DNA of 64,000 bases, taken from contig JAPNXP010000003.1 in assembly GCA_028753945.1 (NCBI GenBank), positions 5,952,001 through 6,016,000 of the forward strand. Reading direction: 5' to 3'. The position numbers and the translations under genes were made by a program. This document shows, piece after piece, positions 10,201 through 62,583 of the stretch. The first letter of the stretch is position 1. Each line of letters opens with the position of its first letter. The notes beneath the pieces were generated by a model. That model worked only from the letters and a program-made list of their open reading frames with translations. It searched no databases and had not been told where the DNA came from. The DNA comes from Hexactinellida sp. DTS-2022. Taxonomy: Eukaryota; Porifera; Hexactinellida.

Positions 10201-13200
10201 TTCTTTAAGTTTCGCTAATTATTCATTTGGAGATTATTTGCTCTGTCATGATGACCAACTAGAGAATCGAAAAATTGCTTTTATTTATTATTTGGTAGCG
10301 GATAACTGGGGTATACTGGATGGGGGGACTTTGGATTTATTTAATTCCAAAGTGTTGAAACCTTTTGAAATTGCAAAATCTATCATTCCATCAAGAAATA
10401 CTTTAATTTTCTTTGAAGTTAGTGATATTTCGTTTCACCAAGTTTCTGAGATTTTGAGTTCGAACAAATCGAGATTGTCTCTCGCTGGTTGGTTCCATTA
10501 TAGAACTGAAACTGAAAATTTGACACCTGTATTTCCACTTCCAATTCCTAACCTAATTGAATTGGTAACAACGGACATCTCAATATTAGAACCATGGATA
10601 AATCCAATCTATTTAGACACAAGTGTACAACTTGAAATCAGGAATAATTTCGCTTCTAAATCTGAAATAAAATTACCAGATTTTATTTTGCCCGAAAAAT
10701 TTAAAGAAATTTCTGACAAAATAAATTCTTCTGAATTAGAATGGGAATGGAATGGAGTGTGGAATAGAGAGAGATTTCAGCGAATCAAATGTGAGGAAAA
10801 ACCGGAAATATTAGCAAACTTTGACACCTTATTAACATCAGATTCGTATGCTATTTTGCTATCTCACTTAACAGGACTGAAATTATCCGAAAATCTACAA
10901 GAATTCGATTCTAGCGATTCGGAAACCGGAAGTAACACCTCTCATAGTTCCTATTCAGACACGACACAAGATACAAACGACATCACACCTGTTCTAAATA
11001 TAGGATTTGGCACCTTAATATCCTCAGCTAAATGGAGTCCTGGTAGTTACAGTTTATTAGATTTCACAAATTCGATTGTTTCCCAAACAAACCGTCTCGA
11101 ATCTACTTTATTCCTAACCACAGATTATGTGCCTAATGAGTATCAAGGTTTCTGTAGTTACATAGCGTGCGATAATACGTTGGGAGAATTAATGAGGGTA
11201 ATGCCACAAAACAACTGTTTGTGTATTGTCTATTTGGAAAGGGGAACTGACAAGTTTGTTAAATACACAAGTTTGTCTTCTGTGGAGTCTTACCATACTT
11301 TCTCTTCTTTGCATTTTGAGAAGTAATTTCAGTAATTAGATTTATTGCCCTTTAGATTCTGTATTTCAGTATTATTCGTTTAATTATTGAAAAGTATCAT
11401 TGATAATTGTGACGTATTTCTACTTTATTCTATTTCATTTTTGCTAAGGAATAGCAGCTTGTATTCATATTGGCATGTTCACAATTAGTTAGCAATAAAT
11501 ACTATACAGTATACTCTCGTTAATACGAACACACAAGGGAACCGTCGAAATGCGTTAATATTATTCGTAAATCCATATTGTCATTTGTATGTATTTGTAT
11601 AGGCTAGGGGAATTAAAGTCGACTCTCCTATTAACAAGAGTCATATGTATTTGTTTACATATTTTAACGGTTGATAACTACAGTAGAACCTCGTTAATAC
11701 GAACACCAACGGACGGTAAAATTTGTTCGCTTTATCCAGAGTTCGTATTAACCGGAGTAATACCCATTGAATAGCCATTGTAGGGACCTGATTTTGTGGA
11801 ACTGTTTGTTCGTCTTATCCGGAAATTCGTATTAATCATGTTCATACTAACGAGATTCTACTGTAACATATATTTACAAATTGTAACTGTTGATAGCTAG
11901 TTCATTTCCAACTACATATCTAAAACAGTTTACTTGAGTAGTATAGTATTTAGTTAGTACTGTCCCTATAGGCATAATGGTGAAGGTGTACCACGTGGAT
12001 TTAGACTGCAAGAGTGTTAGGGACCCTCAGATGCTGAGAGCTCATCAAACTATGACCGTGGGGGAGTTCAAACAGTTAGTCGAAGAGGTACTTTATAATA
12101 GTATATAGTACATTGCTAATTGAGTACATTTGTATGTAGTCTTGTTGTTGTTGTTGTTGTTGTTCCATTCTGTAAATCCTGTGAAATGTTAACCAAATTT
12201 ACGTGTGCTCTTTTAAGAGAGTTACTATCTGCTTATTGTGGAGAATTTATCATCTGTTTAATATGAAAAACTTTATTATGAACAAGCCTTATGGGATATG
12301 GTCCTAATTTACCAACTTCATAACCTTTGTGTTATGCTGAGTTACTTATTATGAACACAATTTTTGGTCCTTCAATGTTCAAATATATAATCTGACATAT
12401 ACAGTAAATACACTATACTGTTGTATTACTGACCGTATACATATTATTACTGTTGTATTACTGTACTATTGATTACTGTACCGTATATACACTATACTGT
12501 TGTATTACTATTACTGTACCGTACACACACTATACTGTTGTATTACTATTACTGTACCGTACACACACTATACTGTTGTATTACTATTACTGTACCCTAC
12601 ACACACTATACTGTTGTATTACTATTACTGTACCGTACACACACTATACTGTTTACACACACTATACTGTTGTATTACTATTACTGTACCGTACACACAC
12701 TATACTGTTGTATTACTATTACTGTACCGTACACACACTATACTGTTGTATTACTATTACTGTACCGTACACACACTATACTGTTTACACACACTATACT
12801 GTTGTATTACTATTACTGTACCGTACACACACTATACTGTTGTTTTACTATTACTGTACCGTACACACACTATACTGTTGTATTACTATTACTGTACCGT
12901 ACACACACTATACTGTTGTATTACTATTACTGTACCGTACACACACTATACTGTTTACACACACTATACTGTTGTATTACTATTACTGTACCGTACACAC
13001 ACTATACTGTTGTTTTACTATTACTGTACCGTACACACACTATACTGTTGTATTACTATTACTGTACCGTACACACACTATACTGTTTACACACACTATA
13101 CTGTTGTATTACTATTACTGTACCGTACACACACTATACTGTTGTATTACTATTACTGTACCGTACACACACTATACTGTTTACACACACTATACTGTTG

Positions 13201-16200
13201 TATTACTATTACTGTACCGTACACACACTATACTGTTGTATTACTATTACTGTACCGTACACACACTATACTGTTGTACAGTACTATTGTATTACTGTAC
13301 CGTACACACACTATACTGTACATACACTATACTGTTGTATTACTGTACTGTTACCAGGAGATGGGAATACCAGCTGAGAACATGCGAGTGCTGCTGGAGA
13401 GATACTACTACGAACTCAGAATATTAGAGTACGACCACCATCTCCTCAAACAGGAGGGCTTCTACAGAATTAACAAGGTAGTATATAGTCATTCATAATG
13501 CAACTCTCGTTATAACGAAGTACAAGGGACAATTACTTCGCTATAAGTGGAATAAATAAATTGCTTTATTCGTCTGGGGAATATATATATACAGTAGAAC
13601 CTCGTTAATCCGAAACTCCGGTTAATACGAACACTATTTCAGTCCCCTTCAAAGCCCTTTCAAACATTAATTAATCACCAACATATTTGTAGATGTAATT
13701 ATATTATACCTGTTAAGCAATTACACCTGAAATTTATAGGAATACAGTGGAACCGGTTAACAACGGCCACCCAAGGGACTGGCCAAAATTGGTCGTTTTG
13801 TACAGGTTGATTATAAATTGGAAGTAATGTGGGGAGTCTGGGGAATTATTATAAGTGGCCGTATATACAGTTTTATTGTACATTAATTTTCAAATGCAGG
13901 TGTGTATTAACCGAGTTTACTGCATTTATTTCTGTCTGTTATAAGTTGCATTTATTTCTGTCTGTTGAAAGTTGCATTTATTTCTGTCTGTTGAAAGGTG
14001 TTCGTTGAGGGCGGGAAGTTTGACGATCACCTGAATCCGATCGAGACCTCGCAGATGTACAAAGTTGTGGATTCGCACATAAACGCGGTTAACCTGATAA
14101 TAACGCTGCCTAGCTCCGAGGAGGTGGAGCGGGAGAAGAGCGAGAGGAGAGCTGTCGAGGGAACAGTGGACCGAGAGGGGGGAGATGAAGGTATGTAGTA
14201 CTTACTTAGCTATTGTATCTTGTTAATAAGCTTAATAAGCCGTTGTCACAGTACAGTAAAACCTCGTAGATAAGTAGATACGGTCTGATGATGGTACCTA
14301 CTTAGTTAGTTAGTTAGTTGTAACGTAAGCCTTAGACCGTCTATTTATAGATCAGGTTTTCTTACACTTACGTACATTAGTATTACCCATAGACGGCAGG
14401 GCTTTTGGACTACAGAATTTATAGATGATCTACAGATTTTTGGCTTATTTGTATGGGCTTTTATAAACTCACACATAAATTATTTGAATTTAATTCGATA
14501 CGCCCGTAGCGCGGAACGAATAGTTGTAAATAATAATACATTCAAGATAACTGTCTAACTCTAACGGTACTAGTTGCATGAATTTGCTGTCAATTTTCAT
14601 ACTTTCTTTCTCTCAGAAATTCCACAATTATTAGAAGAAACTTCTCAGCCAAATGAAACAGAAAACGAACCAATAGAAAAACAACAAACAGAAGAACAAC
14701 AAACAGATAAACAACAAACAGAAGAACAACAAACAGATAAAGAACAAACAGAAAAACAACAAACAGAAGAACAACAAACAGAGAAAGAACAAACAGAATT
14801 CGTTAGAGTTTTCACAGACAAAGAAACTGAAAAAGATCCAGAATTAGATTCAGCGCGTAACAAACCGAAACCTCGAATAATAAGAATTAAAATCGACAAG
14901 CGCCTAACTATTTCAGATCTGAAGAAGAGACTGGAATCAGAAGTTGGAGTCTCGACTGACTTCTTTAAGATTATTCGTGTGTACTCCAATCTACAGGAAT
15001 TTGAGTATACACGATTGGGAGACACTCTTTCATCTTTCGTTGATGACGTTAAGGTATGCTTAAGGACAGTAAATTAACAACTTACATAGGATTTGTATTA
15101 AGTTAAGTTCGCTTATTATAAAGTCTCTCTATTATGATTTATGAACACAAATTTTTGGTCCCTTGAATGTTCATAATAAAAATAACCTGACTGTAATTCC
15201 AATTTATATGAGTCAAGGTATTAACTTGTAAGTTGCCTTTCCTTACTGGTGTACTGTATTTAGATTGTAGTGCGTTTGGGTCGCGCCTTGAAGCCGGGAG
15301 AATACAGAGCTAAAGTATACTTCCTGAATGTTAAAACTCCTGAAGAGGTTGGTTATTAAGTTTATATTTTGTACTTAAACATTGTTATTTGATGCCATGA
15401 TTTTGTTCTTGAATACTGTTATTTACTCAAATATATTCGTTTAGATTACAAAGTTTTTGATGGATTTTATTGTCTCCAAAGATTTATCTGTCAAAGATGC
15501 CAAATTAGAAATTCTAGACTCAATCAATCGAAAGAAAACAGATTATTGTCCGGAGGGACTAACTTATGAAAAGTAAATACAGTGAACTCCCGTTATAACG
15601 ATTAATAACCGGTTATAACTAAATGGAGATTTCCCCCTGAGTACTAAATGCATTAATTATTATCCGATTTTTAACAAATATCCGGATATACCGAAGAACT
15701 TTACAGGTCCCAAGCACTTCGTTATAACGAGAGTTCACTGTAGTAACATGTATGCATAATCCGAGCTCTTTTTTACATCAGCTTTTCATTAGACGTATAA
15801 ATTTGCTGAAATTCACTGTAATACAGTTGTGTCTTAATTTGAATCTACTCTATAAGCTACTATTCGAATAAATCCTGAAATTTACGTTATAAAATGTTTT
15901 GGTACTTAATTCCTTTCAGAAAATTTCAGAAAAAACATCTAAATTATTATTCATTAGTCCACATAAATATAAAATTTAAATTAGTTCGGTTAATAACTTA
16001 AGAGTTTACTTATACAGCGATCATCGATATCACCGATCATCGGAGTTTGTATTAAAAACCTGGCTACTTTCTACCGATTGTTTTCATATGTTTATAAAAA
16101 AAAAAACACCATCGGTAGAAACTAGCCAGGTTATTTAATACAAACGCCGATGATCGGTGGATAAGTAAATTCATGACTTAATTACACCAATAAAGTGACG

Positions 16201-29124: not shown

Positions 29125-29460
29125 TTAGCAACAAGGGATGGTAGTAATGAGCTTAGGTGTGATGTACACCCTCTTAGCATGAGAGACACTGCGTATTGCA
29201 AAAAGCATTTTAGATCTGTCAATATCGGGAACTCCACACTTGATAATCCTGTCCTTAACTTCGGTAGGGGTGTAGCCGCTCTTTGCAGCTTTCATAAGAG
29301 CAGCTACTCCAGCTACATGGGGACAAGCCATGGAAGTCCCACTCATTGTTGAATACTCTGAAGAAAAATAGAATTATGGGAAATATATTTAAATTTTATT
29401 TAGCGATACATAGCATTGTAGAGGTATTTGAATTTGTAATCTAAATTAATATAATAAGTG

Positions 29461-29556
29461 AACAGTTAGTTCCTTAATTATTCAATGATTTTCGACAATA
29501 TTAATTATTATTTTAATATTGTCGAAAATCATTGAATAATTAAGGATCTAACTGTT
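29461..29556. repeat. Long hairpin in the last intron of protease A
   Basis: Arms 29,461-29,503 and 29,514-29,556 are inverted copies of 43 bp with one mismatch, separated by 10 bp. Each arm contains TTATTCAATGATTTTCGACA or its complement. A second, smaller inverted repeat (TCATCATTATT / AATAATGATGA) follows at about 29,574-29,600. Confidence 0.85.
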
Positions 29557-30506
29557 AAATTTGCTACAAGACATCATCATTATTAAATAATGATGAAGTC
29601 TTGTGCCAAGTGAAGTTTTTTTGTTTTATATCTTAACTTGTGATTCTTTCAAAAAATATCCACATGCGTTTATATTAAGTCATCAGTAACTAATGAGTAT
29701 CCCTCAAATGGAAATGATTTTGTGATGTTTTCAATGAAAAATTTGATAATGCAGCCAAATTTTTCCAAATTGAGAAATTTAGAAATGATTAAAGTTACTC
29801 ACTGTCCGTAGCTGTATAGTCTGCACTGCAGATTATTTCCCCTGGAGCCATGATATCAACACATGTTCCGTAGTTTGAGTAGGGTGCCATAGGTTTCTTG
29901 CATTTCCTGCATGGAGTTTCAATATACCCATGAGCTCCTACGTTAATATTCATTCCAGCACTGCCCGGACTTCTGTTGCATGCATCAATTCCCTGATTAC
30001 CACTAGCTGTGACTACTATTATACCCTCCGTAACTGCTTTGTTTATTTGTTTATTCATTGGAGTGTCCTTGGATCCTTCCAAAGACATGCTTGCTATTGA
30101 TGCAACGAAATCTGGTCTATAAATAGATTTCAATTAACAATTTATATCGTGGAAACAATTAATAAATATCTACCGTAACGTATTATTAAACTCGATTGTT
30201 GTGTATGTGTTCGTGTGTTTGTTTGTCCGGATTGTATTAATTAAAGAGATTCGGGAATAGAAATAGCATTTATAATTGAGGTAGAGACTAATAGTGAGGT
30301 GGCTTAGTGAAATTACCGTTACATTGCGGATAAGAGCACCATATTTTGCATGAGGCTCCCTTAGGGCCTATTGATTAATGTTATCCTGGGAGCCCTCCCT
30401 TCCGACGTATTAAAAAAAAATTATTGAATTATTGAAATTTTTTTTGAATTTAATTCAATAATTATATAGCAACAGTCACAGTTACTAACATACACTTTGA
30501 TAAGAT

Positions 30507-32080
30507 CTATGGAGTACATTTGCATTTGCAAAGTGGTGAGCAGTCAAGATTTGCTTTGGCACAATGGCAGATGGAGCAGTCCCCTTTGCAAGAACATTTG
30601 ATCAGCTCCCTGCACGCTCTGGAAGCCTCTGGAATTGTCACCCAAACTGGTACCCACGAATCTGATATATTGGTCCAGGCAAAATCATGTGGAGAAGGAA
30701 TCACTAGCTGTATTTGTGTGCTGGTCGTCCAGATTCCTGCTTGATACACTGCACGTCCGATATGCTGGAGTAGCGCATCATTGGTGGGTGGCAGCTTGTC
30801 CATTGCTCGATTCTTGTGACAGAAGAGTTACCCTCTTGTATCGTTGATGGATCTCAAAGGACTGGTTTTGTCATACAGGATAACAGTCAATCTCTCGATC
30901 TTTTTGAAATGGTCATCGTCGACACCCAGCAGCTGGAAGGGGTGACTGGCGAGATACACAAATGTCTCTGTGAGTCTTCATAAACATGCCAGGCCTGCCA
31001 AACTAACTTCTTTCCCTTGCCGTTGAAGGCAGAGGTTGTGTCACAACCTGAAAATGCATGCAATACAGGTAATGCTCGTGATTTTGGCTCCCCCAGGCTT
31101 GCACAGATGGCGTTTATGTGGAAAACCTTTAATTTTTGCCCATGCCAATGGCAACCCAGATGTCTCCCAAAAGATGAGTCGCAATCAGATCATGAAATGT
31201 TCCTGCAAGGATGACTACAACATCTGTATCTACGGTACGCGCTTGACAATGTAGATGGGGAGGGGTGGCTTACGCTCCAGAGTGTGCCTGGTCTTCACAA
31301 CAGTACGAGATGTTTTACCTTTTGTGTTGTAAATGATGCCTGGCCGATGGTTAGGCAGCCTGGGAATCACGCTTGTCTTGATATTTCAAGTTGGAGCCAT
31401 TCAAGATCATGGAAATAAGAGACTTGAGGCTTGAGGGTATTGAGCCTTCTTGGCATTGAGCCGGGATGCAAACAGTGAAGTTGAAGCCTTGATGGCTTAA
31501 GATGTCTTTTCTGACTAACGTAGCAGCTTTGGCCAGGATAAGAGCATCTTCTGAGAAGTCTCGAGTCTTCAGAGCATCCTTTAACATATTTCTCATGTCT
31601 TCCTTGAAAACGAGAACAGTGTTTCTTTCATCATACTGTTCTTGTGCCACTGGGAATCGTTATCGCAGATGCATTCCTTCAGCCTGGTCTTGTTGACTAG
31701 TTTCTTGAGCTCAGTTCTTCCAGACGTTTCACATACAGAGAATGGATCTCGGATAGTTTGAAGAGAAGAGTTCCAGAGTTCACAGAATTCGCAATGGATC
31801 TGGTGAGTTCTTCAAATGCCCGAGACTCGTTTATTTTCGCATCTGTGTCTTCAGGTATTTGGTTTAGCTTTCGAGTGAGACTACGGTAGCGATTTCTCAA
31901 CTTGACCATACATGTCAGATGGTATCCGGCCTTCATTGCAATTAGATCACCTCCAACTATTCTACTCAAGAGCTGGGTGTCGTTTAGATCTGTGATTATT
32001 TCCCGGATATTTTTGTGTGCATCAAATGTTGAAAATTCATGAGAACATGTTCCTCTTCCCCTTTCTCGCAGAATAATCAT
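30507..32080 (-). pseudogene. Decayed coding region of the long-TIR transposon
   Basis: Three open pieces read downstream on the minus strand: 32080-31697, 31650-31351 and 30803-30507. The first has a GGDLIAMKAGYHLTCMVKLR block followed by a coiled-coil-like stretch. The last has an AVYQAGIWTTS...PSPHDFAW block, an IPEASRACRELIKCSCK block and a closing Cys-rich cluster (CHCAKANLDC, CKCKC), probably zinc-binding. I recall similar multi-copy proteins of unknown function in cnidarian and other invertebrate genomes, apparently borne on transposons. Stops and frameshifts separate the pieces, so this copy is dead. I cannot assign the transposase superfamily. Confidence 0.55.
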
Positions 32081-32503
32081 TTTTGAACGTCAAGTGCTTT
32101 GCGTACTGGGCCTTTTCTCTTCATCATCATGGTTCCGCTCTCTCTTCTTCTTTGCCTTTGCTAACTTAGAATTGTTGAATTTCAAGTGACAAGATTTGTG
32201 CCAGGAAGCAGAATGAGAAGCAAAGTTGGCAACAGTTTCATAACTCCCAAAAATAGTTCAGCTGGAAGAGCACCAATGGCTCGGAACTGTTCTTAGTTGG
32301 TAAGGAATGATGTGTAGGCATCTGTATTGTCACGACTTGATCCAGGGCTCAGCAAGGGACACTTCAAGGGTTCACCAGTCTCCTGTTGGCAAATCACACA
32401 GCAATCCCGTTCAGTTCCATGCTGACACTCTGAAAGGAGAAGAAAATCTATTTGAAATTAAGCAGCCAAGGCACAAACATCTACAAATTGATTTTCCCTA
32501 GTA

Positions 32504-32883
32504 CCTTATTATAGGAAATTAACGCACCATGAAATTAACGCGAATTTCTCCAAATCGCGGTAATTTCCTTAGCGTTAATTTCATGGAGCGTTAATTCCAT
32601 GACCTTAATTTCCTGCTATTTAGCAAAATTATACAATGGATGGACAAACTTCCGAGCTACATATTTTAAGATGTGGAACTAGTTTGAAAGGATATACCAT
32701 GTCTATCAAGTAGATTGGAAGCCTTTTTGTGCACAATAATAGTATTAAATCAGGAGATTAATAAACCGGAAATTTTTTAATAAAATTTATTCGCGTTAAT
32801 TTCATGTATTTGAAAATGTTCAGCTCCAATTCGCGTTAATTTCCTTCGCGTTAATTACACGGCGCGTTAATTTTCTATAATAA
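32504..32883. mobile_element. MITE with TTATTATAGGAAATTAACGC ends
   Basis: Left end TTATTATAGGAAATTAACGC and right end GCGTTAATTTTCTATAATAA are inverted copies. Several extra GCGTTAATTTC motifs in both orientations lie just inside the ends. It is nested inside the 3.4-kb transposon. Confidence 0.75.
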
Positions 32884-33111
32884 TGTATACAATTCATATA
32901 CCTAAATAGCACAAGGATGACAAATGTTGAGAATATTGTTAGGTATCTGCCCCAGTGGTTCTCCCAATATAGCTATAGTTGGCCAGATAGAGTAAATTAA
33001 TAGAATATTATTGCTGTTTTAACTGCGTGCTGATCTCCCTGGGCTTCAGAGCTAGCTCCTTTATATCGGCTGCCAGTCATCTGTCCATTATCTGCTAACA
33101 CAATACAACTA

Positions 33112-33287
33112 CAGTTGAAACCGGATATTTTTAACACATTCTTTTAACGAAAATTTGTTAAAAATATCCGATTGTTAAAAATACCCGATTTTACAACAAC
33201 AACAATAATTAATTATTTACAAGAAAATGTGTTAAATATATCCGATTGTTAAAAATATCCGGTGTTAAAAATATCCGGTTTCAACTG
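33112..33287. mobile_element. Tigger/pogo-like MITE, AACCGGATATTTTTAAC family
   Basis: Starts CAGTTGAAACCGGATATTTT and ends with the inverted AAATATCCGGTTTCAACTG, flanked by TA. It is nested inside the long-TIR transposon. Confidence 0.75.
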
Positions 33288-33761
33288 TACAGTCTGTACT
33301 CATAACATATAGCCAACTAGTCATACAAACACAACACAATTACTGTACACAAATTACCACTAGTCATCATACACAATACAATTACTGCACATTAATTATA
33401 ATGTAATGTAGTCCTGTGTTGTTGGGGTTCCCCAGCATTGGGAAATCCACAACAACTATAGAATACGATTTAATATCAATTTAATGCCTAAAATATTATA
33501 GAGTTTCTAAACATGGGGATATGGTACAAAAAAAAATGTTGAGGAAAATCGCTCTTTTTCATATTTGTCGGCCATCTTTTTCATTTTACACACAATAAAA
33601 ATTGAATCTCCGGAGGGCTCCTAGGCTAACATTTATCGATATGCCCTAAGGGTTCCTCATACCAAATTTGGTGCTTTTATCCGCCATGTAACCGTAATCG
33701 TTAAATATAGCCCTAAGCCACCTCACTATAAGTTCCAAAGGATACAATAGGTAAATAAGTA

Positions 33762-34477
33762 CAGTAATACCTCGTTTTACGCGGAACAATTTTTTATAAC
33801 CAAAACTTTTTTTACGCGATCCTCAACTCGTTTTACGCGGTTTATCTATGATTTTCATACAATTAATTCTCTTTTTTATGGAGATTTTAGATAATTTTTA
33901 ATATTTAGTCGAATCAAAGCGATTCTACATTTCAAAAAAAAAAATGATTATTTAGGGATAGTAGATAGTTAGCGATATGTATTTGTCATATAGTAAGTTC
34001 ATCCAAATATATTATTGGTCAAATGAATACATATTTGCTTCACTATACACACTAAATATACCCGGTTGTGGGAGGTACCCGAAGGTGTAGGGTTGCGGTG
34101 TTAAGGGAATTTTAATTCCCTTCACAACACAATTCCCTTTCTGTGGGAATTCCCAAATATTCTCACAAGTTGGTTTCTTTCAGGATTCCCATAGGTTAAA
34201 ATAATTTCCATTCAAATCCCATATTGGAAATCCCATGGGAATTCCCATGGGATTAACATACACACGTAAACCTTGGCTATCTGAGAGGTCCGGATGTTGG
34301 AGGTTTGAGTGTTTAAACACTAGGTATTTAAAATTTTATTCGATGTTGATAATTTTTGGAAACGCATCTATTGGTTTAATATGTGTTACTATGAGAATAT
34401 ACCGTTTTTTTTACGCGATTTCGTTTTACGCGGGCTTTTCAAGGAACGCATCTACCGCGTAAAAAGAGGGATACCTG
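33762..34477. mobile_element. Tigger/pogo-like element, CTCGTTTTACGCGG family, with inner insertion
   Basis: Starts CAGTAATACCTCGTTTTACG and ends with the inverted CGCGTAAAAAGAGGGATACCTG, flanked by TA. The middle, about 34,086-34,255, holds a worn hAT-like element related to the one at 2,478-2,636 (GGGAATTCCCATGGG motifs). Confidence 0.65.
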
Positions 34478-34923
34478 TATGCTGATTTCGAATTTCGCAT
34501 TTATAAATTTCTAATAGAAAAATTTGTTGTGGTTGTTTAAAAACTAAGTAGTAAATTAATGGAAAGCTTTTAACTTGTTCAACTTGTATTATAGGTAAAA
34601 AAGTATGCCAAATTCTAATTAAATTTAAAAATTTTATTTAATGTAAATATATCTTGTAGTATATTGAAAAAGTGATGCCGTGTAGCAATTGAGACCGAAG
34701 GGCTCGTTGGTATGTAAATACTGTACCTCTTGAACCGATAGAACAATATGTTTGAAATGGATAACGATATTCAATTATTACTGCTAATATGTCCTTCAAG
34801 GCCGGCGGAAGCAGTTATAAAGTCGTCAGGCATGATCGCTTCCTCCGGTCGCTATCAATGCCAATAGTTAAGATGCTTTAATTCTACTCGCTTTTGACTC
34901 CATATAATTTATAAGATCATTTA

Positions 34924-35616
34924 GTATATATGTTATGGGCAATATGCGAAATTGGACATTTTGCATAATGCCCAGGCAATATGCAAAATCCTGGTTTTTG
35001 TAGCAATTTGCATAATGCCCTGATTCCAATCAGACAATTTGCATAATGTCTAGCAATTTGCATAATGTCGAGCAATATGCATAATGCCCAGGCAATATGC
35101 AAAATGCTGGTTTTTGTAGCAATTTGCATAATGCCCTGGTTCCAATCAGACAATTTGCATAATGTCGAGCAATATGCATAATGTCCAGCAATTTGCATAG
35201 TGTCCAGCAATTTGCATAATGTCCAGACAATTTGCAAAATGTCCAGCAATATGCAAATTAACTTTCACATAGTGATATCTTTTTTGTTAATTGATTAATG
35301 TTGTTTGTTCGAACTTAATATCTAAACAATTAAATGTCTACTAAGGGGGGACCCATCTGAAATTGTTGTATTTTACTATCCGGCTAAATTGAATTTATAT
35401 TAATAATACAGAATGTAACAAGTATGAATTGTATATTGCCAATTTTATGTGACAGTATTATGCAAATTGTCTGGACATTATGCATATTGCCGGACATTAT
35501 GCAAATTGTCTGGTTGGTATGATGGAAATATGCAAATTGCTACAAAAACCAGCATTTTGCATATTGCCTGGGCATTATGCAAAATGCCCACTTTCGCATA
35601 TTGCCCATAACATATA
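34924..35616. mobile_element. Inverted-repeat element built of AATTTGCATAATGTC subrepeats
   Basis: The two ends are inverted copies of about 150-200 bp beginning near ATATGTTATGGGCAATATGC. Inside, an 18-19 bp unit of the type GCAATTTGCATAATGTCCA is repeated many times, and ATTTGCAT or ATGCAAAT occurs about eleven times. The right end stops about 14 bp short of the splice-donor side of the protease A His exon (35,630-35,893). Confidence 0.8.
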
Positions 35617-35893
35617 CATTCTTCTTTACCTATTTATATTTTGCTGATGATTATCGCAGACCTTTATAAGTCCTCTAATAACTTTTCCCCGTGTTGATTT
35701 GCCGTCACGATCTAATACTCTAATGCTGTATAAGTTAGCATCCTTAGCAATTCCACTGTTTATCCCAGCTGCTATACCTGCACAGTGTGTACCGTGACCG
35801 TTACAGTCGCTTCCCGGAATATATCCTGGAATCGTATTAAGAAATGCATCATAGCCTCCGTAATTAGCTCTTCCTAACGTCCCATTCATGTAT

Positions 35894-36541: not shown

Positions 36542-36940
36542 TCATAAGCCGAATTTATTTAAGCATATGATTCTGATGTTGTTTGATTGAGGAGCGATTA
36601 TTTGGGAAATAATTAGGAGGAATATTAATATAAACCCTCTTAGCATGTGAAATATCGCGTGTTGCAAACCTCATAATCCTGTCCTTAACTTCGGCAGGCA
36701 AGTAGCTGCAATTAGCAGCTTTCATAAGCGCAGCAAAGCCAGTTATATGGGGACAAGCAGGGCTTCATCCAATTTTGAAAGGAAACTTGTCTAGGCGCGA
36801 AAATCGAGAGATGCTCCCATATAAGTAATACAAATTGAGTATTTTAGGCGTGTGAGAGCGAGCTCAAATTAAATCTAGGCGCGCAGAAAATTTTTCATGG
36901 ATGAAAGCCTGGGGACAAGCCATGGAAGTCATACTCCATG
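36542..36940 (-). pseudogene. Relic S8 subtilase Ser exon split by a hAT-type MITE
   Basis: Minus-strand reading of about 36,757-36,542 gives a degraded Ser exon: ACPHITGFAALMKAANC, then EVKDRIM, ISHAKRVYI, and a stop. Compared with gene A it has lost the block around CGVPDIDRS. The piece upstream of the active-site motif (about 36,940-36,912) is out of frame. The break falls within the codons for the GTSMACPHVAG motif, where the element at 36,758-36,911 has inserted. No partner exons are visible, so this is a remnant of a lost tandem copy. Confidence 0.8.
36758..36911. mobile_element. hAT-type MITE inserted in a protease active-site motif
   Basis: Ends CAGGGCTTCATCC and GGATGAAAGCCTG are inverted copies at 12 of 13 positions. 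An exact 8-bp duplication GGGACAAG flanks the element (36,750-36,757 and 36,912-36,919); both copies lie in what was coding sequence for the Ser motif. Related elements or fragments lie at about 28,735-28,883, 37,760 and 44,420-44,560. Confidence 0.9.
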
Positions 36941-37262: not shown

Positions 37263-40162
37263 TTAAGTCTTGACAAACAACCTTTTTGCATGAGAGTACT
37301 CCTGTATAAAGGCGCTCTTTGCTGACCTGTCAATATCACTGATGCCATTGGCCTTAATAGTAAGTTTAACCTGATCATGAGTAAAATCTATGTTTTTAGA
37401 TTTAATTAGAGCAGCTACCCCAGCTACATGGCTCGCTGCTACTGCTGTGCCATATGATATTATGAAATCTAGAAACAATGTTGTAAAAATATTAAAATAA
37501 AATTTAATTATACAGAAGAATTGTCAATATGAACACCTGGGACCGTAGAAATTTGTTCGTATTATTTAGAAATTCGTATTAACCGGTGTCATTTGTATGT
37601 ATTTATGTGTATAGGTTCTAAAGAAGAATTAAACTTTGTACTCCTAAACCGATATATCGCCTTATTTGTGTTTGTTTGTATTAATGAGACATATACAAAT
37701 TTAAAAAATTGTGCATAAAACAATAAATTTCATTACTCAAGTTAAACTAAGTATTGAAATCAGGCTTTCATCCAAGAATTTTTCTTGCAGGCCTAGATTT
37801 AGTTTGAGCTCACTCACACTCGCTTAAATAACTAACTTAGGCTCAAGACTATGGGAGTAGAGTTGACTCCGCTTAATAGAGCCACCTCGGGACCAGGTTG
37901 TTTTGACCCGATTAAGCGGATAAATCTATTAACCGAAAATATTGTAAGCCAAACTGTAATTCTGTCCTATAAAACCTGTGAAATTTTGACCCGATTAATC
38001 GAAGAAACCGATTAATCGGTGGCTCTATTAAGCCGAGTTTACTGTATTTCTTAATTTCGCGCTCCAAATGGAACCTTGATTGGAATAAAAATAACTATTG
38101 ACTCACCAGTATCAGATTTGAAGCTTGCACTCTTGATAAAAACTCCTGGGGCCATGATATCATTACATCTTCCAAAGTTAGAGTATGTACCCATCGGTTT
38201 GGCGCAAGTATTTTCATCATATGAATGGGTTCCAACGTTAATACTGACAGAATTACCAGGACTTTTATAGCATGAAGGTTCATTTGTATTTCCAGTGGCA
38301 GTTACTACTACAATGCCATGCTTCACAATTAAATCAACATATGTATTTAGAAGTGATGATTTGGGAAATGCCATTGAAAGACTTGCAATTGATCCAATGA
38401 ATCCAATCCTAATAAAAAGAAATATTGTTACAATCATGTTTGTAATTGTTGCTAATTTAATTTTTGAGATGAATGCAAATATTTACCGTATTTTCCCGAA
38501 TAAGACCCCGGCGCTTATTGTTTCCAATTTGTTTTGAAAAAAATCAGAAAATAATATTTAGGTGGATTCTAATTTTTCTCAGCGACAGTAAACATAGCGA
38601 AATTTCCAAAATCAATGCAAATACACTTCAGTAATCAACTAATGGATATAGATAATTGACGTACAAATGCAATTGTTATTGACCCGGCGCTTATTTGGGG
38701 AAATACTACTGTATTTATTATAATATCTAACTCCATAATTAATGTTTGTATACCTCATAAATCTTCAATAATATTTTGATAATAAACCAATTTTTTATTT
38801 TTTTTCATTTATTTTTAGTACAGATTTTTAATTATACGTTCCATCAATGTATAAATATACAAGTATAAACCAATTAAGTCTAATGCAAACGATCTTACCT
38901 GAATTTCTCCCTATTATGATTATCTAAAACTGCTAGAAGACCGTGGATAAAATTTTCAGTTGTTGCCTGACCCTTACAGTTTACAGCTCGTATACTGAAT
39001 AGATTTGCATCTTTAGCTATTCCACTGTACAAACCTGCCGCAACCCCAGCGCAGTGAGTGCCTAGACCGTTACAGTCGCTACCCTGTTGGCTTGATCCAG
39101 TTAATTTATCAATTATATCAGTTCCTCCGAATTTTGCTCTGGTGCCCAATTTTCCACTTCGATGACTAAAATATCAATATTATAAACTATATTCTTGTGT
39201 GTGAGTATGTGTGTTTATTTGTTTGTTTGTTTGTTTGTTAGTTTGTTTATGAACAATCCCTATGGTCCCAATTTAACAACTTACATATGGTTAGTATTTT
39301 GTTGAGTTCACACTTATTATGTTGTCCCTCTATTATGAACACAATTTTGATCCATTGAATGTTGCATTTAAATTGCAATTACCATTTGTAACATTATTAT
39401 GAGCAAAAATCAAGCATATTTAACTCGGATTACTTAAAGTCTTTGTGCTCATAGTTGATTCCAGTGCCTACGATGTAAATATCGACTTCTTTTCCATAAC
39501 TTCCTGGCTCAAAGGTGCCATCTGTACATTTTTCATCATCCACAATATCCAAATTCCAGCGATCTGTGTTAATTAAATCTTCTGTGGATCCTAGATTATC
39601 CATTGGGACATCCTCAGAGAGGGAATTGCTACTTTCAGCAATCAAAGTTTCATCTCTTTCAACTGTGTCGACAATGTTTAAATCAGAAACCTAACATTAA
39701 AGACAATACAGTTATTAATTAATTAACACTCGTTAGAACAAAGTCGGATATAGCGAAATACCAACTTATAACGAAAAGATATTTTCCCCCAGAGCACTAA
39801 ATGCATTAATTATTATCCGCTTATAACGAATATCCGAATATAACGAATAAATTACACGTCCAAACACTTCATTATAACCAGAATTCATTGTATTAATATC
39901 CATACAGTCCTATTAATTAACTTACAAATTGGGCTATTTCATCACTGAATTCCCCGAATAGAACGGGTAGCAGAGTATTGTCGGACTGTATGGACATTTC
40001 ATCTCGAGACAAAGAGGATTGTTCCTCCAATTGCTGTATGACATCTTCCAATTGATTCTCATTAGCGCCTTCCTGTAACAGTACTATGTATCTTGCTGTT
40101 TCAGCTTGACACATGGATACCAGAGTAGTCAATAGGAATGCACACACAATCTGCACTTTCAT
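37263..40162 (-). CDS. S8 subtilase-like protein B with all three catalytic residues replaced (pseudoprotease)
   Basis: Minus-strand exons 40162-39926, 39690-39434, 39165-38899, 38408-38107 and 37468-37263 join in phase to an uninterrupted 422-aa protein. A signal peptide (MKVQIVCAFLLTTLVSMCQA) is followed by an I9-type propeptide (RYIVLLQEGANENQLEDVIQ) and the peptidase S8 fold. The catalytic Asp motif reads IYIVGTGIN (Gly154 for Asp), the His motif CNGLGTHCAG (Leu199 for His) and the Ser motif YGTAVAASHVAG (Ala363 for Ser). The oxyanion Asn is kept in VVVTATGNTN. Exons 2 and 3 are exactly as long (257 and 267 bp) as in the active paralog C. No stop, frameshift or broken splice site is seen, so a non-catalytic secreted protein is more likely than a decayed gene. 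An active protease is ruled out by the known mechanism of the family. Confidence 0.82.
37857..38044. mobile_element. Tigger/pogo-like MITE, CTTAATAGAG family, in intron 4 of protease B
   Basis: The left end GTTGACTCCGCTTAATAGAG and right end CTCTATTAAGCCGAGTTTACTG are inverted. The inner sequence matches the 44,211 copy. Confidence 0.6.
38490..38715. mobile_element. MITE with CGGCGCTTATT ends
   Basis: Ends TACCGTATTTTCCCGAATAA and TTATTTGGGGAAATACTACT are inverted and TA-rich, with CCCGGCGCTTATT motifs inside both. A worn copy occurs at about 18,800-19,115. It lies in intron 3 of protease B. Confidence 0.6.
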
Positions 40163-46715: not shown

Positions 46716-49700
46716 ATGAAAGTTCAAATTGTGTGTGCATTCCTATTGGCGACTTTGGCTGTAACATTTGCCGGAAAGATTATCATTGAGAGGGAAAAGT
46801 ACATAGTACTGTTGAAGGAAGGGGCTACCGATGAGCAAATAGAAGAGGTCATTCAAATTGTGGAGGGACATGAGGGGTCACAAAGGGAAGAGCTCTTCAT
46901 AGAGTCAGATAATACTCTGCTACCGACGATCTTTGGAGAAATCAGTGAAGAAACTGCTGATAAGGTATGATTTGTTATTAATAAATGTCCAGTATATTCT
47001 TAACTTAAAAAAAATTTTTTTAATACTTCTATGAAAATTGCTGTTATTCAAAAAAGTCATTTATTCAATACCCGAGAATGAGTAAAACTAAATTACCAAC
47101 TACAGTAGTTAATACGAACACAAGGGGCCAGTCAAAATGCGTTCGTCTTATCCAGAATTCGTATTAACCAATATATAATTTGCATTGAAAAAGCTTTGAG
47201 GGGACTGAAATAGTGATAATAATTAATTATTACTAACCATCTTCGTGCTGACGAAATTCTACTGTATTAGTTTATGTACTTACTTTATATCAACCAACAT
47301 CCTTCAATATAAATACCTACTTTGCAAGGGTTAATTTGGGGCTGAAACGAATATTCGAAATGGAACGAACGAATCAGTTTCTAAACGAACGAATATTCGA
47401 ATATTCGTTCGTTTTGATGACCTAGCATTAAATCAATTTTAACACTCAAAATACAGTGGAAAATAGGTTTTGTTGATGTTACAATAGTTTAATCTTAGTT
47501 ATAAAGTGTTTAAGAAACAGGTTAGATATTACTCAGCTAGTTTAGGTTTAATTTATATTTACGATCTCTCCAATCTATACAAAAGTAATGTTTTTGCCCA
47601 AAATTAGTCAACGATTATCCGTTTCAATATACCTTCAAACGAATATTCGCTCAATCTTTCGAACGTATATTCGAATATTCGGTATATTCGTTTCAGCCCT
47701 AGTTAATCAACTTAATTTTGATGTAAAATTACCTTTCCAGTGCCTAAAGATTACATTAGAAAGCGTTCTGGTCTATACGTACAGTAGAACGTGGTTTTAA
47801 TTCGCTTAGTACATAAGAACTTGTATAAACAATGTTTCCCAATGTAAATGTATTATCTCTATGTAGTATCAACTCGGTTAGTACACACTCGAATAATACG
47901 TACAACTTTTTCTCCCGAGGGGTACGTACTACCGAGTGCTACTGTAAAGTAATTTATTTGTTATTTGCTTTGCATTTAGAATTTTATAAATTTCATATTT
48001 TAATCTCAGATTTCAGAATTGGACATTGTGGAAGTAGTTGAAGAAGACGAAATCATATACCTTGATAGAAACTTTGAAGATTCAAATGAGATATCCAATG
48101 ATGATCTTGAGAAGACTGAATACTCCACAAAAACAACTCGATACAATTTGGACATCATCGATAATGTAAACTGTACTGATGGCACATTCAAGCCATTCAA
48201 TAACGGATCGGGAGCTGATATTTATATACTCGATACTGGAATCAACTATAATCATACAGACTTCAGGTAAATACAAAAAAACTTAAATTAAATTATTGTT
48301 ACGTTATTGGAGTAGATGCCAAATTTTCGCGATCCTATTTAAAAATTTCCAAAAATTATACTCCAAAAAGAGCGTCTCGCGCTCCTGGTTATACCTTGAA
48401 TTTGTATCCCTACAACTAATGAGTTGTTGTACACAAGATGGTATCCAAGATTGGTAAGGAACAGTTGCCCGATTCCCGAGAGTATCAAGGCTGCAGAATA
48501 GCGTATATTTCCAGAGTCAACCCGTATTCTTTAATCTAGAAGGGGAGATGGAACGAAAGGAACTAGAGCAATAAATCCAGGATATGATGTTGTTGATAAC
48601 GAAACTGATTCCAATCAAAAAGGGAAAGATTGCAACGGACACGGTACTCACTGCGCTGGTATTGCAGGTGGTTTGTCTAGCGGAGTGGCTAAGGATGCTT
48701 TTCTAGTCAGCATAAGAATAATGGATTGCAAAGGAATTGGAAAAAGGAGTTGGGTTATTAAAGGGCTGCTGGGCGTAAGCTATTTCCACGAGTGGAGAAG
48801 TAAAAGGTAATATGTTGTACATTGTAACCTGTCTAATCCTACACCGTTGGGAAGAGAGAAATGTTGGATTGCCAAATTGTCGGATTATGCATCCTCTAAT
48901 GCATAGTCAGACTCTCATTGGGCTAATGTTCAGCTGAATTCCGGATTAAATAGGGTCGGATTATGCAGGTTCTACACTATATTAATAAATTAACAAAATA
49001 TATGACAAATTATTATTGTCAATATGAAATGTATTAGTGAGTGCATAGTTCATTAGTAATTATATTAGGGCTAAAATTTACTTTTCCCTTAAAATTAGAT
49101 ATCTCCCTCCCTCTCTAAGTCGCACTTTTCCATTTTGTAAAACAAAAAAATGGTTTGTTAATTGTTATACATAAGTTAATTAAACGGCCCAAAGTTCACA
49201 GTAACAATACAGTCAGGCCCTTTTATTATGTATAGTATAATAAGTGAATTCACTTAACACAAATCCTCTGTAGGTTGTTAAATTCGGACCATAGGGCTTG
49301 TTCATAAAATATTTCTTTCATAATAAGAAGACGAAAAATTGTTCACAATAAACAGGCTTAACTGATACAAATACAGTAGAACTCGTTTGTAGCCAACAAC
49401 TTCGGTTTGAAAATATGTACCAATTATCCGGGTATACGTTCTAAACGAGTTCCCCTAAATGGTAAGTATGTTTCCTAAAATTGCCTTATAAAATTAGTAC
49501 ATACTAATAGTCCATGTATATACTCTATGACATTACAATATACAATTTAATTCTCCTTTTAGAGAAGAATTTGTTGGAAGCATCGTAAGCATATCATATG
49601 GATGTGGGAAATCTGTTATTCTAAATAGCTACATCAATAAAATAGTGGATCGTGGGGTTGTAGTAGTGACAGCCAGTGGTAATGAAAGGATGAACGCATG

Positions 49701-50461
49701 CCGTAGGAGCCCCGGGAGTGCTTCTGGTAGTATCAACGTCGGAGCTCACGGTTACGGGAAAATTGGGACAGGCTGCAAAAAACCAATGGCACGCTTCTCA
49801 AACTATGGACCGTGCGTTGATATCATGGCACCAGGAATTCGTATTCTTAGTGCTAGCTACAAGACTAACACAAGTTTGTTTTAAAAATATACGGATTTTA
49901 TATTATATAGAATACAGTAGACTCTTGTAAATACAAACACTAGGATCGTCTTATTATCTAGAAATTCGTATTAACCGGAGTCACTTGTATGCATTCGTAA
50001 GGGCTAGGCAAATAAACTTTGTACTTCTTAACCGATTTCCCTCCTTATCCGTGTTCATATTAACGAGAGTATATTATATTTTGGAAAGACCTTTTCTAAT
50101 GTAATTTTCGGACAGTGTCATTATTTATTAACATCACACATTGACCTTTCCCAATCCGGAAAATTGAATCTGCATTTATCTTATCTTGGATAAATATTTA
50201 TGTGTATATTTACGGGTAGCCACTACATTCCACTCATTTCTAGGTTTCACTAAAGAGAGAGGAATTTCTATGGCTTGTCCTCATGTTGCCGGATTAGCTG
50301 CACTCATGAAAAAAGGTGACAAGACTATTACTGCTATTGAGATTAAGGAGAGGATTAAAGCTAATGGAATTGATGATATTGACAGATCAGCTATGAGCAA
50401 TGCAGTGCAGGCTAGTTCCTATGCCAAGAGGATGTACGTCACTCCTAACCTAATTGCTTAA
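46716..50461 (+). CDS. Secreted S8 subtilase C (proteinase K-like), complete triad
   Basis: Exons 46716-46964, 48010-48266, 48540-48806, 49563-49873 and 50244-50461 join in phase to 433 aa. A signal peptide (MKVQIVCAFLLATLAVTFAG) leads into an I9 propeptide (KYIVLLKEGATDEQIEEVIQ), which in this family folds and inhibits the enzyme until cleaved. Catalytic residues are Asp158 in IYILDTGIN, His203 in CNGHGTHCAG and Ser370 in GISMACPHVAG, with the oxyanion Asn in VVVTASGNE. The residue before Ser is Ile, where Thr is nearly invariant, which could alter activity. The donor after exon 4 (A then GTTTGT) is weak. Product: probably a secreted endopeptidase for digestion, defence or matrix turnover (inference). 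A Tigger-like and a hAT-like element lie in intron 1. Confidence 0.88.
47103..47264. mobile_element. Tigger/pogo-like MITE in intron 1 of protease C
   Basis: Starts CAGTAGTTAATACGAACACA and ends with the inverted CTGACGAAATTCTACTG. It is also present in copy 2 (60,911-61,072), so it is older than the duplication. Confidence 0.65.
47338..47701. mobile_element. hAT-type element, GGGCTGAAACGAATATTCG ends
   Basis: Left end GGGCTGAAACGAATATTCG and right end CGTTTCAGCCC are inverted, with many GAATATTCG motifs inside. Flanks GTTAATTT and AGTTAATC are similar but not identical. The duplicate at about 61,148-61,465 is shorter inside. Confidence 0.65.
49372..50085. repeat. Partial Tigger-like MITEs in introns 3 and 4 of protease C
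   Basis: Ends of the type CAGTAGAACTCGTTTGTAG (49,375) and CAGTAGACTCTTGTAAATAC (about 49,915) occur, the latter closing near TTAACGAGAGTATATTATA at 50,080. They bracket exon 4 of gene C (49,563-49,873). Confidence 0.5.
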
Positions 50462-60517: not shown

Positions 60518-62583
60518 ATGAAAGTTCAAATTGTGTGTGCATTCCTATTCGCTACTTTGGCTGTAACATTTTCCGGGAAGATTATCATTGAGATTGAGAG
60601 GGAAAAGTACATAGTACTGTTGAAGGAAGGGGCTACCGATGAGCAGATAGAAGAGGTCATTCAAATTGTGGAGGGACATGAGGGGTCACAAAGGGAAGAG
60701 CTCTTCATAGAGTCAGACAATACTCTGCTACCGACGATCTTTGGAGAAATCAGTGAAGAAACTGCTGGTAAGGTATGATTTGTTATTAATAAATGTCCAG
60801 AATATTCTTAATTTATTAAAATTATTTTTAATATTTTTATGAAAATAGCTGTTAATCAAAAAAGTCATTTATTCAATACCCGAGAATGAGTAAAACTAAA
60901 TTACCAACTACAGTAGTTAATACGAACACAAGGGGCCAGTCAAAATGCGTTCGTCTTATCCAGAATTCGTATTAACCAACATATAATTTGCATTGAAAAA
61001 GCTTTGAGGGGACTGAAATAGTGATAATAATTAATTATTACTAAATATCTTCGTGCTAACGAAATTCTACTGTAATAGTTTATGGACTTACTTTATATCA
61101 ACCAACATCCTTCAATATAAATACCTGACTTTGCAAGGGTTAATTTGGGGCTGAAACGAATATTCGAAATGGAACGAACGAATCGTTTTCTAAGCGAACG
61201 AATATTCGAATATTCGTTGGTTTTGATGACTAAGCATTAAATCAACACTCAAAATACAGTGGAAAATAGGTATTGTTGATGTTACAATAGTTTAATCTTA
61301 GTTATAAAGTGTTTAAGAAACAGGTTAGATATTACTCGCTAGTTTAGGTTGAATTTATATTTACGATCTCTACAATCTATACAAAAGTAATGTTTTTGCC
61401 CAAAATTAGTCAACGATTATCCGTTTCAATATACCTTCAAACGAATATTCGTTTCAGTCCTAGTTAATCAACTTAATTTTGATGTAAAAATTACCTTTCC
61501 AGTGCCTAAAGATTACATTTGAAAGCGTGCTGGTTATACGTACAGTAGAACTTGGTTAGTACAGTAGTTGGTTAGTTGGTTTAGTCCTCACTTCGGCTTT
61601 AGTACCTACTAACTTATATAAACAATGTTTGTAAATTTATATGTATCTCTATGTAGTGTCAATTTGATTGATGCGTACAGTCGGATAATACGTACAACAT
61701 TTACGTACTAACCCACTTCTACTGTATAGTAATCCCTTTGTTATTTGCTTTGCATTTAGTATGTTTATAAATTTCATATTTTGATCTCAGATTTCAGAAT
61801 TGGACTTTGTGGAAGTAGTTGAAGAAGACGAAATCATATACCTTGATAGAAACATTGGAGATTCAAATGAGATATCCGTTGATTATCTCGAGGAGTCTGA
61901 ATACTCCACAAATACACCTCTATACAATTTGGACATCATCGATGATGTATACTGTACTGATGGCACATACAAGTCATTCAATAACGGATCGGGAGCTGAT
62001 ATTTATATACTCGATACTGGAATCAACTATGATCATATAGACTTCAGGTAAATACAAAAAACTTAAATTATTGTCACGTTTATAGGAGTAGATGCCAAAT
62101 TTTCGCGATCCTATTTAAAATTTTCCAAAAATTATACTCTAAAAAAAGCGTCTCGCGCTCTTGGTTATTACATTGAATTTGTATCCCTACAACTAATGAG
62201 TTGTTGTACACAAGATGGTCTCCAAAATTGGTAAGGAGCAGTTGCCCGATTCCCGAGAGTATCAAGGTTGCAGTATAGAGTATACTTCCAGAGTCAACCC
62301 GTATTCTTTAATGTAGAAGGGGAGATGGAACGAAAGGAACTAGAGCAATATATCCAGGAATCGATGTTGTTGATGCCGCTACTGGTTCCAATCAAAAAGG
62401 GAAAGATTGCAACGGACACGGTACCCACTGCGCTGGTACTGCAGGTGGTTTGTATAGCGGAGTAGCTAAGGGTGCTTTTCTAGTCAGCATAAGAGTAATG
62501 AATTGCAAAGGAGGTGGATATTCGAGTTGGGATATTAAAGGGCTGCAGGCGGTAAATAATTTCCACAAGAAGAGAAATGGAAG
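60518..62583 (+). CDS. Secreted S8 subtilase D, first three exons (rest not in window)
   Basis: Exons 60518-60772, 61791-62047 and 62317-62583 are in phase and have the same structure as gene C. They encode a signal peptide (MKVQIVCAFLFATLAVTFSG), an I9 propeptide with two extra residues (IIIEIEREKYIVLLKEG), Asp160 in IYILDTGIN and His205 in CNGHGTHCAG. No stop codon interrupts them. Exons for the oxyanion Asn and the Ser are not found in the remaining 1.4 kb, although the matching intron of gene C is only 756 bp. The duplication breakpoint lies right after exon 3, so the gene may be truncated; exons beyond the window end cannot be excluded. A MITE starts 13 bp after the exon 3 end. Confidence 0.75.

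Follow-up and report, generated by a model that had tools for sequence, protein, structure and literature searches.

How can a gene lose all three catalytic residues of a subtilisin-like (S8) peptidase and still encode a full-length protein, and what might such a protein do? The question is raised by a gene, here called B, that lies on the minus strand of the window, by which we mean the whole stretch of DNA analysed, 64,000 nucleotides long with a G+C content of 33.7%. The gene and its exons are the following.

37263..40162, minus strand: gene B, a predicted S8 (proteinase K/PCSK9-like) pseudoprotease of 422 amino acids in five exons (spliced translation; Pfam PF00082)
39926..40162, minus strand: exon 1, signal peptide (by eye) and first half of a propeptide-like segment (profile 116.5 bits, with B in the profile)
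39434..39690, minus strand: exon 2, remainder of the propeptide-like segment, then the beginning of the S8 domain with the Asp site, here Gly154, GGC (123.6 bits, B in the profile)
38899..39165, minus strand: exon 3, His site, here Leu199, CTA (133.3 bits, B in the profile)
38107..38408, minus strand: exon 4, SLSMAFP segment and oxyanion Asn294 (144.4 bits, B in the profile; alignment)
37263..37468, minus strand: exon 5, Ser site, here Ala363 in GTAVAASH, GCA, then the C-terminus and stop (103.0 bits, B in the profile)

From first to last the exons measure 237, 257, 267, 302 and 206 nt, stop included. They are separated by four introns, each of them GT-AG, and together form a coding sequence of 1269 nt that translates into 422 amino acids with no stop or frameshift. 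Identical exons were recovered when our spliced aligner was given B's own protein. The putative signal peptide (MKVQIVCAFLLTTLVSMCQA) is typical by eye. Intron 4 holds an inverted repeat with 29-nt arms 131 nt apart (window 37858-38046), resembling a small MITE, and exon 5 is flanked by an inverted pair with 77-nt arms that are 73% complementary, one arm downstream of the gene (36814-36890) and the other in intron 4 (37781-37857).

The spliced protein scores as an S8 subtilase (PF00082, E = 2.4e-20, 73.5 bits against a curated cut-off of 21.8). Its best PDB matches are a keratinase (5wsl, E = 3.1e-35, residues 123-418) and PCSK9 (E = 6.8e-35), and the joint alignment of B and three paralogs (C, R and E) has a match at 7.3e-55 in aqualysin-1. 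An active S8 peptidase carries catalytic Asp, His and Ser; in their places B has Gly154 (motif IVGTGIN), Leu199 (NGLGTHC) and Ala363, while the oxyanion Asn is retained as Asn294 in VTATGN. The preliminary description of this locus had given the coordinates, triad motifs and splice phases of B, all of which proved right in the spliced alignment and in the comparison with gene C; its statement that Asp, His and Ser are all replaced with the oxyanion Asn present is confirmed from the codons of B and from the alignment. It had also held that the changes from His to Leu and from Ser to Ala each require more than a simple transition, and here a correction is needed: His to Leu takes two changes from CAC, the codon used by 19 of the 21 other models (F has CAT and Y has CAA), and Ser to Ala takes a single transversion, from TCA to GCA. 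For Asp to Gly one transition is enough (GAC to GGC). The I9 propeptide that it assigned to B did not hold up in the same way, for Pfam Inhibitor_I9 does not match B's propeptide even at E <= 10. One of the four family members scanned does match it, weakly (E = 0.0012), and the alignment of B with the propeptide region of PCSK9 reaches 4.1 bits, below significance; B's propeptide resembles I9 only in where it lies and in how it aligns with the rest of the family.

Two explanations of the altered triad can be weighed directly against these observations. The differences might be assembly errors, but they lie in three separate exons, involve several multi-base codon differences and leave the frame undamaged, which makes such an origin extremely improbable. 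Alternatively, B might retain a hidden catalytic activity that uses other residues, as the presence of the oxyanion Asn and a fold that scores as S8 could suggest. Sedolisins have a Glu/Asp catalytic pattern; the alignment reveals no such pattern in B and no base or nucleophile left at its three sites, and we consider hidden activity very improbable.

Other positions of B have changed as well. Where the paralogs have SMSIGGG or similar (most of them), KGGG or similar and ACPH, B has SLSMAFP, KGQA and AASH, and these positions presumably map to the substrate subsites and groove glycines of proteinase K. The conserved cysteines of the mature domain are present in B, with the exception of Cys366, the Cys of ACPH.

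The genome that holds the window comprises 112 Mb in 18 contigs. A placozoan source was considered first, but 16 homeodomain matches, two zf-C4 matches and no wnt match, in a scan in which wnt was silent in the control genomes as well, seem more in keeping with the gene counts of a sponge, perhaps a glass sponge. For the glass sponge Aphrocallistes vastus, Wnts are reported to be absent, scaffolds above 40% G+C were taken as candidate bacterial sequence, and introns on one scaffold average 516 bases (PMC10282587). Scanning the genome with PF00082 gave at least 89 exon matches; two clusters on contig C12 hold the majority, and not one of the 89 falls in the single exons of B. When the genome was searched with B's protein, no match outside B exceeded 63% identity. 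We modelled 24 genes with a purpose-written spliced aligner and aligned 22 of them. The other two, S (site-1-protease-like) and T (PCSK9-like), were kept outside the alignment and the counts, and in both the motifs of Asp, His and Ser are visible by eye. The triad counts refer to sites read, B included, and leave aside L001 and L002, which are the largest S8 frames in the genome; V, whose last exon is an artefact, and W, which ends before exon 5, provided no Ser site. V, Q and F were omitted from the tree and from the column counts, and F, K, Q and X contain doubtful short exons. On this basis Asp is kept in 20 of 21 models, Ser in 19 of 20 models, and His in 27 of 29 genes (22 models and seven short pieces). 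B alone among the models read has lost the triad entirely.

Further variation at or beside the catalytic sites is found elsewhere in the family. Paralog Y (G000:C12:4371850-4377450; L052 with L053) is a recent copy with about 82% identity to C; it has Gln (CAA) in place of the catalytic His and retains Asp and Ser. In the models H, U and P (L034; L013 with L021; L042), which retain the triad, Met takes the place of the Gly that precedes the oxyanion Asn (VTASMN). Search coordinates and equal scores also suggest near-identical tandem copies of a subtilase gene block at 4.407-4.465 Mb of contig C12 (G000).

Within the window, B is accompanied by the following members of the family.

29125..35893, minus strand: gene A, with open exons 3 (35893-35630), 4 (30116-29803) and 5 (29357 to a stop near 29125); His and Ser kept
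36639..36761, minus strand: relic exon 5 of another paralog, between B and A (exon-5 profile 43.6 bits, E = 7.9e-12; translation)
46716..50461, plus strand: gene C, a paralog with five exons, Asp, His and Ser codons and the Ser motif GISMACPH (spliced model, alignment)
60518..62583, plus strand: gene D, with exons 1-3 inside the window and exons 4-5 past its end; the codons for Asp, His and Ser are retained

The exons of gene C measure 249, 257, 267, 311 and 200 nt (the last without the final codons and stop), and their phases are those of B. By eye, the relic exon most resembles exon 5 of A. Exon 5 of gene D (L031 5090-5330) carries a frameshift with its triad codons intact, as in a young pseudogene or an assembly indel. 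Elsewhere in the window, long open frames in an apparent tandem repeat at 12408-13498 are in themselves no evidence for a gene.

Gene loss in the family counts against the maintenance of B: A is without exons 1-2, D has its frameshift, and the relic exon 5 is true decay adjoining B. These decaying relatives speak in favour of the view that B is itself a young pseudogene, which lost activity and purpose recently and in which stops have yet to appear. This view can be set against the substitution pattern of B. A codon branch model written for the purpose was applied to 11 of the 22 aligned sequences over 415 codons. The dN/dS of the B branch, which the preliminary description had proposed as a check, is 0.275 against a background of 0.370, a figure that averages the periods before and after the catalytic loss and from which we infer selection after it. 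A value of 1 on this branch is rejected (2dlnL 31.6, or 15.8 log-likelihood units; 41.0, or 20.5 units, with a second topology), and the difference from the background falls short of significance (2dlnL 1.8). Taken by part, the B branch has 0.09 in the propeptide, where 1 is rejected weakly (2dlnL 6.5), and 0.30 in the mature region (2dlnL 23.0). The control branches gave 0.290 for E, 0.168 for R and 0.166 for A. These results demonstrate purifying selection across the B branch as a whole.

The conserved columns of the alignment tell how well B has been kept relative to its paralogs. Of the columns that do not vary among the other members of the close clan, the number broken is 15 out of 101 for B, 25 out of 111 for R, 14 out of 100 for E, 4 out of 57 for A and 6 out of 92 for P; His199 is outside the 15 broken columns of B because Y differs there too. 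In the wider paralog set the corresponding figures are 8 of 51 for B, 7 of 50 for R, 4 of 47 for both E and O, and 0 of 35 for A. B is no worse kept than the less constrained among the long-branched paralogs, yet it is not the best kept. Outside the motifs, its conserved columns show no clear excess of decay over those of R and E, two old paralogs with an intact triad, which counts against a young pseudogene. In the protein tree the end branch of B has a length of 1.02, compared with 1.07 for E, which keeps its triad, 0.81 for A and 0.76 for R; the position of B in this tree is unsure (54/81).

The open frame itself sets a limit on neutral change. A simple model of mutation puts the share of neutral substitutions that create a stop at 4.8%. 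If each substitution is accompanied by 0.05-0.15 indels, as assumed here, a frame that is still open caps the neutral distance of B at 0.013-0.025 per site, so that a young pseudogene would be allowed only about 1-2.5% of neutral change. Over 22 motif codons, B differs from the nearest paralog codon by at least 10 base changes, compared with 4 in R, 2 each in O and G, 1 each in C, P and H, and none in E, and 8 of the changes in B lie in the six codons whose residues depart from those of the clan (154, 199, 363, 364, 366 and 367). At most, the joint chance of finding all three triad codons changed with the frame open is 1.3e-6 to 9.6e-6, and the chance of at least 8 changes in the 66 bases of the 22 motif codons is 3e-6 to 3.5e-4 at three upper neutral limits, small probabilities that are biased by the choice of case, because the triad was noticed for being odd. 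We read the triad loss in B as old relative to any neutral period, and regard a young pseudogene as unlikely. The core of the earlier reading, that B works as a non-catalytic protein and is not a product of recent random decay, is supported, if indirectly, by the branch dN/dS, the column constraint and the motif changes accumulated with an open frame. The particular functions suggested there (inhibitor decoy, binding partner, propeptide chaperone or lectin-like binder) are candidates.

A different kind of explanation would make A and B a single locus whose first two exons, those of B, could be joined to one or the other of two alternative sets of exons 3-5, the dead set of B or the His- and Ser-bearing set of A. 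No exons 1-2 belonging to A were found, and upstream on its strand, before gene C is reached, the sole matches to exons 1-2 are those of B; therefore, either A has lost its 5' half or it shares the first exons of B. In line with sharing, exons 3-5 of A are open, with the low branch dN/dS given above, and A has a good acceptor and a matching phase. An intron of about 5.5 kb separates its exons 3 and 4. The phase match is, however, unspecific, because the modelled paralogs have the same phases, and a deletion may have removed the 5' half of A. No mosaic signal distinguishes exons 1-2 of B from its exons 3-5, and an A-type product would still be without Asp, because exon 2 of B carries Gly. Taken with both sides of this evidence, a shared locus is improbable. 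A mosaic origin of B, considered as a candidate in its own right, was unsupported in the mosaic test.

In our view, then, B is probably a maintained, secreted, non-catalytic subtilase, that is, a pseudoprotease that would act by binding. The signal peptide, recognised by eye, suggests that the protein is secreted. Since B is without the triad, the simplest expectation is a zymogen-like secreted protein: its proprotein would be unable to cut off its own propeptide, and B would stay in a zymogen-like state with the uncleaved propeptide sitting in the dead groove. Because the groove positions of B have changed, a binding role away from ordinary substrate capture is favoured. The most likely function would be that of a partner within, or a regulator of, the secreted triad-bearing paralog family, in a manner similar to CspC and CspA.

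This proposal can be compared with systems that resemble B to different degrees. Proteinase K, aqualysin and keratinase are like B in fold and motifs over residues 123-418; unlike B, which has lost all three residues, they retain Asp, His and Ser and are active. PCSK9, like B, is an animal proteinase K-like subtilase in which Ala replaces the Pro after the Ser motif (GTSQAAAH in PCSK9). PCSK9 works mainly by binding; it has an intact triad, performs a single self-cleavage and carries a further C-terminal domain, whereas B has neither the triad nor an extra C-terminal domain. To our knowledge, few pseudoproteases of the subtilase family have a demonstrated function, and the best studied of them come from bacteria.

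Among these are CspC and CspA of Clostridioides difficile, which are like B in that a subtilase fold is combined with replaced catalytic residues, and the Csp proteins work by binding. CspC and CspA are reported to form a signalling heterodimer (PMC12880746), and the altered triad of CspC reportedly leaves it unable to process its prodomain (PMC6636752), an experimental precedent for B; the prodomain of CspC is present and uncleaved, as that of B would likewise be. Two catalytic residues are changed in CspA and CspC, compared with three in B, and the Csp family has a jelly-roll insertion of about 130 residues within the subtilase domain (PMC6636752). CspC possesses this jelly-roll domain and B does not: alignment of B against keratinase and PCSK9 revealed no insertion of that size. 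The Csp proteins serve in bacterial spore signalling, whereas B is probably a secreted animal protein. S8 pseudoproteases are already known from CspA and CspC, and B would add another.

A parallel from a different fold and enzyme class comes from leaf beetles, where dead members of the digestive GH28 family have measurable effects (PMC6549527). The GH28 pseudoenzymes are like B in being dead members within an expanded enzyme family; their role has been measured by experiment, whereas the evidence for B is that of its sequence. Among the titles and abstract openings listed from the open-licence literature on subtilisin pseudoproteases, there is no animal S8 pseudoprotease that has lost all three residues, and the family of B is absent from the matches listed in the literature on Trichoplax proteases and on subtilase expansion and sponges. 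An animal case situated among diversifying paralogs, nearly all of which bear the triad, would make it possible to test directly how a dead enzyme gains a use inside its enzyme family, and would also provide a natural instance of a subtilase that probably keeps its propeptide for good.

In one version of the maintained pseudoprotease, with odds that overlap those given to it above, B would serve as a decoy by taking up inhibitors directed at the active paralogs. This version draws on the strong diversifying selection, as in an arms race, that we observed in the young paralogs. For five of them (C, G, I, X and Y, the last without its His), the dN/dS of exons 1-2 is 0.60, that of exon 3 is 1.40, that of exon 4 is 1.15 and that of exon 5 is 1.00, with an overall value of 0.97. 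A site model for ten sequences from the young clade and its sister group (nine keep His and Y does not) places 14% of sites at dN/dS 4.3, with M2a favoured over M1a by a 2dlnL of 145.7, a signal that could be inflated by gene conversion among tandem copies, which itself counts against the decoy. Of 426 columns, 36 are above 0.9, and 22 of these are in exon 3; among them are residues 231, 233 and 234, which fall within the KGQA segment or directly behind it. The decoy version is further weakened because B has changed at the presumed substrate-groove glycines (SLSMAFP and KGQA), so that a groove-fitting inhibitor may fail to bind it. In addition, the beetle digestive pseudoenzyme that was tested was reportedly not bound by classical plant inhibitors, though it was bound by PGIP-like proteins (PMC8213348), and its failure to bind the classical inhibitors therefore counts against a simple decoy. 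On balance we find a decoy rather unlikely.

Returning to the maintained pseudoprotease in its wider sense, the codon patterns are compatible with a secreted protease family engaged in an arms race, of which B may be an old dead member. A more specific picture, which we put forward tentatively and with considerable doubt, is that of a pseudo-subtilase that lost its triad long ago and would now be a zymogen-locked regulator or partner of this arms-race family, possibly with its signal and propeptide exons shared with the C-terminal exons of A.

The selection signal in the young paralogs spans window positions 46716-50461 and the paralogs in L033, L035, L050 and L052, while the propeptide exons stay similar. 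In the bases that follow the coding sequence, five pairs drawn from C, D, G, H and I are 86-98% identical over the first 200 bases or so and 35-45% identical thereafter, an edge that we read as the sharp limit of a duplication or conversion.
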